A DNA stretch of 64,000 bases, from assembly GCF_004099695.1 (NCBI RefSeq), contig NZ_SCHL01000001.1, positions 248,001 to 312,000 on the forward strand, read 5' to 3'. A program made the translations under genes and the position numbers. The DNA is from Methanosarcina sp. MSH10X1 (GTDB lineage Archaea; Halobacteriota; Methanosarcinia; Methanosarcinales; Methanosarcinaceae). Every line of letters begins with the position of its first letter. Position 1 is the stretch's first letter. The notes beneath the pieces are model-generated. The model worked only from the letters and a program-made list of their open reading frames with translations. It ran no database searches and was not told the DNA's origin. Shown here piece after piece: positions 1 to 2,821 of this stretch.

Positions 1-258
1 AATACTATATAAAGCTATGTAACGCATAGCGTAGGCTGACTAAAAACAGACAATCTCGTAATTTGGCTATAAAGTACCCATTTGTGGGCGCGCAAATACC
101 TATATGACCTGTGAGAATATAAACCTTACTGTCTTTATATAGCGATTTTATTTTGCGGCAAGTACCGCTAGCAGGGTGTAGGGGTTGACTGATACTAGAA
201 AAGAGTGAATAAAGCTATTTTATAGCTTTTCTTTGAAAAACAAGGAAATTTTGACAGG
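1..258. other. Gene-free AT-rich flank left of the repeat array
   Basis: No credible coding region is visible. Several short inverted repeats occur: GCTATG/CATAGC at 14-30, CCCA/TGGG near 77-90, and AAAGCTAT/ATAGCTTT near 212-230, about 30 bp before the first 37-bp repeat. The stretch could be a leader for the array or the remainder of the element continuing left of the window. It contains no full copy of the 37-bp repeat, so the array starts at 259. Confidence 0.5.
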
Positions 259-760: not shown

Positions 761-772
761 GTTACAGGGTAT
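761..772 (+). repeat. Repeat-core motif at the integrase stop codon
   Basis: GTTACAGGGTAT matches the centre of the 37-bp repeat (GTTGTAGGGTAT) at 10 of 12 positions. It abuts the integrase stop codon at 772-774. It is in the same orientation as the array repeats and opposite to the copy at 2096-2107. It may be a recombinase binding or attachment-site core. Confidence 0.6.
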
Positions 773-2094
773 TATTCATCTATTTTCATTATTTTTCCCA
801 TCTCTGCTTTAAACCTGCTTTGACTTTCATTTTTAGGCTTCATCTCTTTTACAAAGTCTATTATATCTTGCTTTATTGCCTCATTACGTTCTTCCTCTGG
901 CATAGCCTGGATCTGCATTCTTCTTAACTCCATTTTAGCATTCATGAGTTCCAAGCCATCCACAAAATACTTCTCAGCAAGTGCTTTAAGCCTCTGGTTC
1001 TCGTCTTTTAAGTTGCGCCACTCTTGAGTATCAACAATATCAACTGCTCTAGTTAATGTCAGATAAGGACAGTACCTAGCATACAACTTCTTCTGGTCCT
1101 CCACAGAGAGCCTGAGATAAGCAGAAACCACTTTGTTTAACTTATGCCCCATCCATACCTCAACTGCTTGGTGGTCGCAACCTGCATTAATTAATGTGGA
1201 ATAGAAATATCTTCTTAAATTGTGTGCCCTGACTAGTGTATAACTGTTTTTTGGAGAATTCATTTTAGCTTTAAGTGCAATACTTCTATAAATCTCCATG
1301 AATGTATTTCTCTTTAATTTACGTTCTTCCTCATTCTTGTTTGTCAGCCATGTATCAGGAATTCTGGATAGAATGAATAGATATCCATCATTAGAAAAGA
1401 TGCGTTGTTTCTCTAGCTGTCTTTCTCTGTTTGGGTCATTGTCCTTAGTGACTCTCTTTTGTCTGAAGTCCAGATATGCTCTAACAGCCCTGGAAGCTTC
1501 AGGTGATAGGAAGGTTACAAAGTCCACTTGTGTTTTGCCTCTTCTAATCTCAATTGTTGTGATTTCGGTTTCTGGATCGTACACAAGGTCTTTTATTTTT
1601 AAGTTTCTTATTTCATTAGCTGAGAGTCCAGATGATACCCCAACCAACAGAACCGCCTTCTCCAGCGCGTCACACACGTTTAACGCGCTTATCAAGTCTT
1701 CCTTAGAGGGGATTTTAACGTTCTCTTCAAGTGGCGCGACTTCCTTTTCGCTTCTAGGAAGGTTAGGTAATTCAACATCTAATTTTTTATAAAAACTCTT
1801 AACCACAGCAAGCCTTAACTTAATCGTATTCTGAGAAATGTCACATTGATTAAGATATTCAATATAACTGAGCAGGTGCCTTCTTACTGTCCTTCTCTTT
1901 AACAGAATGCCTTTTTCAGCTTCGGTATCTGCTTCCTCTATCAACTCACTTGGTGCTTTCCCTAAGAAGTCGCAATAACCTTTTAATGATTGAAGATAAC
2001 TATTTCTAGTCATTGGTTTAGGATTGATTAAGGTAAACCAGTCCTTAACTGCCTCATCTTTCTTTAACTCCTCTATCTCAAAAATTCTTCCCAT
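772..2094 (-). CDS. Tyrosine recombinase/integrase
   Basis: A 440-residue tyrosine recombinase expected to cut and rejoin DNA at specific sites through a 3'-phosphotyrosine. An N-terminal SAM-like core-binding region (about 1-115) precedes the catalytic domain. Visible catalytic residues are the beta-hairpin Lys188, the HNLR box (His291, Arg294), GH (His317) and nucleophile Tyr326 in SAYLR. The usual first Arg, in a GLR-x-x-E-I box, appears as Ser158 in GLSANEI, which is odd and could reduce activity or reflect an archaeal variant. A charged C-terminal tail of about 100 residues follows the catalytic Tyr. The start is the ATG at 2094, one base from the inverted core motif at 2096-2107; no clear ribosome site is seen, so it may be leaderless. 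Its 3' end faces the repeat array. Family call is firm; specificity is inference. Confidence 0.93.
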
Positions 2095-2821
2095 GATACC
2101 CTATAACGCTCAACTTAGATATAACTATATTGTCGTTATGCTTGATAGCGTGAGGGAAATTGAGGCTTTACACGGTGATTTATTTTACTCTCTTGAATGG
2201 ATTTTTACAATATTGTTTACATTGGAATATCTTTTGCGTCTGATCTGTGTCGGTCGACCAATCCGATATGCTACAAGCTTTTTTGGGATTATAGACCTTA
2301 TAGCAATTCTCCCGACATACTTCAGTTTGATTTTTCCGGGCAGCGAGTACCTGCTGGTAATCCGAAGTTTAAGGTTACTCCGGATATTCAGGGTGCTTAA
2401 ACTTGTAAAATATCTTGGTGAAGCTGACTTATTGATCAGAGCTTTACGCGCAAGCCGAAGAAAGATAACCCTGTTCCTTTTTACGGTTTTGAACCTGGTG
2501 GTAATACTGGGCTCCCTGATGTACGTTATTGAAGGTGGAGAAAGCGGATTTACAAGCATACCAAAGAGCATTTACTGGGCAATTATAACACTTACAACCG
2601 TGGGATACGGGGACATAGTTCCAGAGACTAATCTCGGGCAGGCAATGGCATCTATTGTCATGATAATAGGTTACAGCATCATAGCGGTTCCGACAGGGAT
2701 TGTCACATCCGAAATAGCACGTGCAAGAACATACTATAGAGAAAGGATATGCCAAAATTGCGGTTTTGAGGGACACGACATCGACGCTGAGTTCTGCAAA
2801 CACTGCGGGGCAAAACTGTAA
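2093..2821 (+). pseudogene. Voltage-gated K+ channel, 5'-truncated
   Basis: This encodes the bulk of a six-helix voltage-gated potassium channel in the cytoplasmic membrane. It shows the end of helix S1 (IVVMLDSV), S2-S3, an arginine-rich S4 ([13 protein letters not shown]), the pore with selectivity filter TVGYGD, S6, and a C-terminal zinc-ribbon-like tail with two CxxC pairs. The N-terminus and most of S1 are missing: homology begins just inside the boundary with the integrase, and the only upstream in-frame ATG (2093) overlaps the integrase start. The gene was probably interrupted by the integrase element, with its 5' part outside the window. A shortened product from an internal ATG (2137) would lack S1. 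Confidence 0.8.
2096..2107 (-). repeat. Inverted repeat-core motif at the integrase start
   Basis: Read on the minus strand this is GTTATAGGGTAT, matching the array repeat core and the copy at 761-772 at 10-11 of 12 positions. It lies one base upstream of the integrase ATG and at the broken 5' edge of the K+ channel gene, so it marks one edge of the inserted element and may also control integrase expression. Confidence 0.6.

Follow-up and report, generated by a model that had tools for sequence, protein, structure and literature searches.

A repeat and hairpin array and near-copies of its core at both ends of the integrase gene in a 24.5-kb integrated element of Methanosarcina

Results

The integrase gene and the neighboring array

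The window analyzed here is a 64,000-nucleotide stretch of contig C11 from Methanosarcina sp. MSH10X1, and plain coordinates refer to it. Near its left end, a minus-strand gene (772-2094) encodes a 440-aa tyrosine recombinase (integrase) that matches PF00589 with an E-value of 3.8e-16 (59.8 bits, cut-off 27.1) and has psiM2-like relatives in phage records. In minus-strand order from the right, the integrase is followed by a repeat array, a dyad with a TATA-like box, ORFs of 53 and 91 aa, a primase-polymerase (PF09250, 24.9 bits against 22.8), and a helicase-like protein (DUF5906, 57.2 bits against 27.6, with a weaker D5_N match). The replication operon lies left of the window. Its putative promoter-like region (4-30, minus strand) contains the TATA-like box at 4-13 and the dyad GCTATG-TAACG-CATAGC at 14-30. 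The 53-aa ORF looks by eye like a ribbon-helix-helix protein; Pfam returned nothing for it and the PDB nothing credible.

The array (259-692) comprises six identical 37-nt repeats, starting at 259, 333, 406, 480, 581, and 656, that are separated by unique spacers. Four spacers form predicted hairpins: spacer 2 (372-398; palindrome score 8, fold z -6.1), spacer 3 (452-479; score 11, z -6.7), spacer 4 (524-552; score 13, z -7.6, with perfect 13-bp arms), and spacer 5 (618-645; score 7, z -3.4). Palindromes also occur ahead of the first repeat (211-229, score 8) and past the last (693-717; score 8, z -2.0), and the one in spacer 1 (304-322, score 5) is not unusual. A palindrome score of at least 7 is reached by six of the seven stretches around and between the repeats and by 37 of 2000 38-nt stretches drawn at random from the element, a comparison that favors the array because its stretches 1, 5, and last exceed 38 nt. 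Against mononucleotide shuffles, four of the seven stretches give fold z-scores of -3.4 to -7.6 and the other three -1.5 to -2.0; against dinucleotide shuffles, the whole array region scores -8.3 and -10.2 on either strand. By eye, the hairpins at 372-398, 452-479, and 618-645 each contain a pair that is of the G-T type on the plus strand and C-A on the minus strand, which hints weakly at the plus strand as the one that folds.

Searches with the array found little outside the source genome, which is the only one of 30 genomes of the genus to carry it (at up to 3 mismatches). A 22-nt part of the repeat had no exact match in viral contigs, phage and plasmid BLAST searches with the array region returned only pieces of 25-38 bases (best E-value 1e-2), and an Rfam search gave nothing at gathering score. 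A scan for bacterial-type promoters found 5 sites against 6.3 in shuffles, and terminator-like sites numbered 5 against 1.4 (s.d. 1.2), two of them coinciding with spacer 3 and the 14-30 dyad. The repeat heptamer GCATAGC also occurs in this dyad, upstream of the operon's TATA-like box, a weak resemblance, given that the heptamer is found three times in the element beyond the array. The array sits between the integrase and the replication operon, and direct repeats beside replication genes are what is expected of an iteron-type origin. Together with its hairpins, the array looks like a putative origin or control region.

The source genome has a CRISPR array of its own near Cas1 (contig C48, L130:16111 onward), with 50 copies in that stretch of what appears by eye to be a 37-nt repeat. 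We considered the element's array as a mimic of the host CRISPR and rejected this, since the repeat beside the one place in the genome with Cas1, where 60 kb were scanned, is unrelated.

Near-copies of the repeat core at both integrase ends

The earlier note on this DNA reported inverted 12-mers at the stop and start codons of the integrase gene that match a sequence within all six repeats, and both copies are indeed in place. The stop-codon copy, GTTACAGGGTAT (761-772, plus strand), shares one base with the stop codon, and the start-codon copy, GTTATAGGGTAT (2096-2107, minus strand), lies one base from the ATG. Compared with the repeat core GTTGTAGGGTAT, which is present in six of six repeats, they differ at 2 and 1 of the 12 positions, respectively. 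By eye, the likeness between the repeats and the integrase-end copies ends with the 12-mer.

Allowing one mismatch, the pattern GTTRYAGGGTAT occurs 8 times in the window (0.44 expected), and all 8 occurrences are exact. The 3.56-Mb genome as a whole contains 10 exact matches, of which 6 are the repeats, 2 the integrase copies, and 2 lie elsewhere, and a single match to the pattern read backward. Because the pattern was built from the copies themselves, any 12-mer of the repeat was also searched over 179,800 bases, which yielded 12 hits with at most one mismatch and 244 with at most two, the two integrase-end sites included; one of the element's ORFs contains a further one-mismatch copy, GTTGTAGAGTAT. 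When 4000 random pairs of sites 1.3 kb apart were each compared with one and the same part of the repeat at both sites, none came down to the observed total of 3 mismatches, the best total being 5 (three pairs). When the two integrase ends are compared with each other, leaving the array aside, they form an inverted match at 11 of 12 positions, a likeness that 1 of 300 random pairs reached. The motif, its length, and the gene were all picked after the sequence had been read, so these figures overstate the case. The claim that the three-way match is unlikely by chance thus stands nominally, on 0 of 4000 random pairs, and is weakened by the post hoc choice of motif. With this reservation, the agreement between the repeat core and the integrase ends is probably beyond chance.

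The start-codon copy lies between the integrase ATG and a TATA-like box, TTATATCT (2117-2124, minus strand), that we read from the sequence as the putative integrase promoter, and it takes up most of the gap between the two. By the usual spacing of archaeal promoters, the distance from box to ATG suggests a leaderless integrase transcript, beginning with the ATG or close to it. The stop-codon copy has no evident role of this sort.

An integrated element that interrupts an ion-channel gene

The integrase is the last gene of an element of 24,548 bp (core to core) whose ends are formed by the 12-bp direct repeat TATTGTCGTTAT. Its right core, attR (2128-2139, plus strand; C11:250128-250139), begins 34 bases away from the first base of the integrase start codon, and its left core, attL, lies outside the window at C11:225580-225591. 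The element splits an ion-channel gene (PF00520). The start-less 3′ part of this gene occupies 2128-2821 on the plus strand (2140-2821 beyond the core), and the 5′ part is found about 24.5 kb upstream at C11:225434-225598, extending from C11:225434 to the attL core, with TATTGTCGTTAT common to both parts. When the flanks are joined at the core, they yield an open channel frame of 279 aa that is identical at 230 of 279 positions to an intact 279-aa relative. The channel gene is uninterrupted in all eight full-length relatives, defined as those in which the whole 8-239 stretch is present and drawn from the 28 of 30 genomes with some match, the source genome included (the fragment at L085 was excluded). 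In these eight, TATTGTCGTTAT is exact in three, carries one mismatch in four, and three mismatches in one; none of their eight loci has an exact copy of the core motif near the channel gene. The G+C content is 36% in the element and 41% and 44% in its flanks. A direct-repeat core at both ends, a host gene that becomes contiguous on joining, and an uninterrupted site in relatives are the marks of a site-specific element. A scan confined to the stretch L039, without the left end, found no tRNA target.

At the right junction (2093-2139), the truncated channel gene acquires a new in-frame ATG in a head-to-head overlap with the integrase ATG. The sequence GCTCAACTT at 2108-2116 is a possible arm of an imperfect inverted repeat whose partner, AAGTCGAGC, lies inside attL. 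In the joined attP, this inverted repeat flanks the core, with an outer portion that extends into the start-codon 12-mer. It is weak, with 28 of 2000 shuffles as good at 17 nt and 111-233 of 2000 at 9, 13, and 21 nt, and it may represent the integrase's own site.

These ends bear directly on the proposal in the earlier note that 761-2107 is a discrete cassette bounded by the core. The boundaries given by the empty site are 2128-2139 and C11:225580-225591, not 761 and 2107, and in the homologous integrases that we compared, 15 of 15, the motif is absent from the start and stop codons (see below). We therefore reject the cassette. To the left of 761, the same element continues with the array and 28 more ORFs of at least 60 aa. 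The core 12-mer is internal to the element and is not its boundary.

Among the ORFs left of the array are a 1670-aa protein and a likely ATPase (AAA_25 below cut-off; phrog_5484, DnaA-like, E-value 7e-7). An 87-aa protein of the element weakly matches a virion protein family (E-value 0.0016), and the element may therefore be a provirus or an integrated plasmid. The element also contains a second tyrosine recombinase of 215 aa (C11:229631-230278; L096:13631-14278), which matches PF00589 below cut-off (E-value 2e-4) and phrog_1 with an E-value of 5e-8.

Active-site residues of the integrase

Alignment identifies H291 and R294 (HxxR), K187 (the β-strand lysine), and either Y326 or Y338 as the candidate catalytic tyrosine among the active-site residues of the integrase. 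The column of the canonical first catalytic arginine (G-L-R motif) holds no arginine in any of the 19 aligned integrases, which comprise the integrase family of the element, ours included, together with those of psiM2 and Methanobrevibacter smithii tailed virus 1; the smithii virus protein has arginines one and two places past this column. Within residues 154-187, all 19 proteins have R185 and K187, and R185, which is close to the strand lysine, may replace the canonical first arginine, in which case the arginine would have moved. This absence from 19 of 19 proteins makes the family's active site a checkable point. A single-sequence structure model of the integrase reached a mean pLDDT of 38, too poor to use. 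In a profile alignment to XerA, profile position 69 corresponds to chain residue 85 at the start, so the integrase has no longer N-terminus that could serve as a separate arm-binding domain.

Comparison with relatives

Members of the integrase family were found in 29 of 59 genomes, the source genome included. We compared the gene flanks of 15 other integrases, a part of the family matches listed, with start codons chosen by hand (non-ATG in some) and excluding L049, L050, L051, and L052 (broken or at a contig end) as well as L022, L024, and L027. In these, the core has at least 3 mismatches at the start flank, which in L042 contains a run of N, and at least 2 at the stop flank, and it is never close at both. 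Inspection by eye of 17 other integrase loci, and of nine stretches around relatives of the replication module, revealed repeats and no array like that of the element. The repeats seen include three 27-nt tandem repeats soon past the integrase stop in L046 and a run of 28-nt tandem repeats in L122. The absence of the motif from 15 integrases and of the array from 17 loci indicates that any link between array and integrase does not extend to the family. If real, this link would be specific to this element.

The nearest replication module, in genome G014, has a helicase 44% identical to ours; it is accompanied by a different integrase and has no such array. Between this integrase and a gene that by eye resembles pyrF, G014 has three 27-nt repeats (L121:2728-2809) that may mark where another element attaches, and in its L120 stretch a 34-nt palindrome is present twice. 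Contig C11 itself encodes a second integrase of the family (C11:40500 onward; L040:3500-4822), 42% identical to ours, and a search over 65 kb for the ends of its element (C11:40494) found one 12-base repeat only. The helicase matches 300 phage records (21-27% identical among the matches listed) and the integrase 26 plasmid records (about 23% identical among those listed). No close relative of the element for a test of motif conservation was found among the genomes and viral contigs searched, a set from which records very near the source genome may be left out.

Discussion

Weighing the explanations

The repeat core and the integrase ends could agree for several reasons. The 12-mers may be a chance resemblance noticed post hoc, with array and integrase linked solely by adjacency in the same element, an account that we regard as possible though on the unlikely side. 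Matches to parts of the repeat with up to two mismatches are frequent (244 in 179.8 kb), one more single-mismatch copy lies inside an ORF of the element, and the motif, chosen after the fact, is shared by 0 of 15 relatives; against this, no random pair among 4000 matched as well at both ends, and the inverted match of start to stop was by itself reached by just 1 of 300. It is more doubtful that the recombinase itself binds the core, with the array and the two copies serving as arm-type sites and working together with the attP core in integration or excision. The array, the gene, and the att core are close together, and the imperfect inverted repeat around the attP core overlaps the start-codon copy. 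That inverted repeat, however, is weak (28-233 of 2000 shuffles) and has nothing further in common with the array, nothing closer than about 1.5 kb to the attL core matches a 12-mer of the repeat at two or fewer mismatches, and all 15 relatives tested do without the motif. With an N-terminus no longer than that of XerA, no site over that distance from attL, and 1.4-1.9 kb between the attR core and the array, the integrase is less likely to read the core than another protein of the element.

The two remaining alternatives carry far less weight. We think it very improbable that the array is CRISPR-like or a structured RNA, unrelated to replication, with the integrase-end copies as by-products. 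Its 37-nt repeats and mostly 36-38-nt spacers resemble the host array in length (period about 72) and it folds strongly as a single strand, but the host repeat beside Cas1 is unrelated in sequence, most spacers are self-complementary, and no Rfam family reaches gathering score. Least credible of all is a cassette at 761-2107 that moves or inverts between inverted core copies: the inverted 12-mers at its two ends speak for it, whereas the ends and empty site of the element lie elsewhere and 15 of 15 other integrases do without the motif.

A putative protein that reads the core

The explanation that we prefer, and hold to be slightly on the probable side, is that a DNA-binding protein of the element reads the core both at an origin-like array and at the integrase promoter. 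The element would have inserted by site-specific recombination catalyzed by its integrase, and GTT(G/A)(T/C)AGGGTAT would be the recognition core of this putative protein, for which a replication initiator or a copy-control regulator of the element is the candidate. Its binding sites would be the six repeats of the array, which separates the integrase from the replication operon, and the integrase promoter, between the TATA box and the ATG. Bound at this promoter, it would cover the start of transcription and so keep integration and excision repressed during replication or quiescence of the element; the stop-codon copy would be either one more binding site or a coincidental match. The 0 of 4000 coincidence and the position of the start-codon copy between the TATA-like box and the ATG argue for a shared core; against it stand the mere 12 bases in common and the nearest replication module, that of G014, which has a different integrase and no array.

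If one protein does bind the common core, the element would provide an example of replication control coupled to integrase expression. It is a tentative and rather unlikely extension that the alternation of repeats and hairpins constitutes a new form of origin in a primase-polymerase element, with the reader of its core also reading the integrase promoter; were this true, a single core would tie replication to the choice between integration and excision. Independently of these readings, the cassette claim is corrected by the exact ends, the target gene, and the empty site of a 24.5-kb element.

Comparison with known systems

The repeat and hairpin array is unusual, and the element itself is of a known kind. 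The integrases of psiM2, psiM100, and Methanobrevibacter smithii tailed virus 1 are homologous to ours over 78-80% of the length at 25-27% identity, and those of psiM2 and the smithii virus, both of which were aligned, likewise have no arginine at the canonical first position. The surroundings of the psiM2 and smithii virus genes contain no exact GTTRYAGGGTAT, the smithii record starting about 0.1 kb upstream of the gene.

In the portion of PMC8371274 drawn on here, classical (non-suicidal) archaeal integrated elements are described as leaving the integrase intact after integration and duplicating the core, so that the empty site can be rebuilt. The present element resembles them in its intact integrase, duplicated core, and rebuildable empty site; it departs from that description (PMC8371274, same portion) in its target, the 5′ part of an ion-channel gene that is left interrupted.

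Among replicons, those of the pRN1 type share with the element a primase-polymerase and helicase module and one or more stem-loops near the replication genes, at least as the available part of PMC4234260 presents them. In that account, pRN1 has one large stem-loop downstream of its replication gene, at which its primase-polymerase works, and no iterons (PMC4234260). Our element, unlike pRN1 as described there, has two separate ORFs and carries repeats with hairpins upstream of the operon. RSF1010, as outlined in the same part of PMC4234260, has an iteron origin in which repeats recruit the initiator and hairpins are primed. The array resembles this origin in bringing repeats together with short stem-loops, and differs from it, within the scope of that outline (PMC4234260), in that the replication proteins of the element are different and its hairpins alternate with the repeats.
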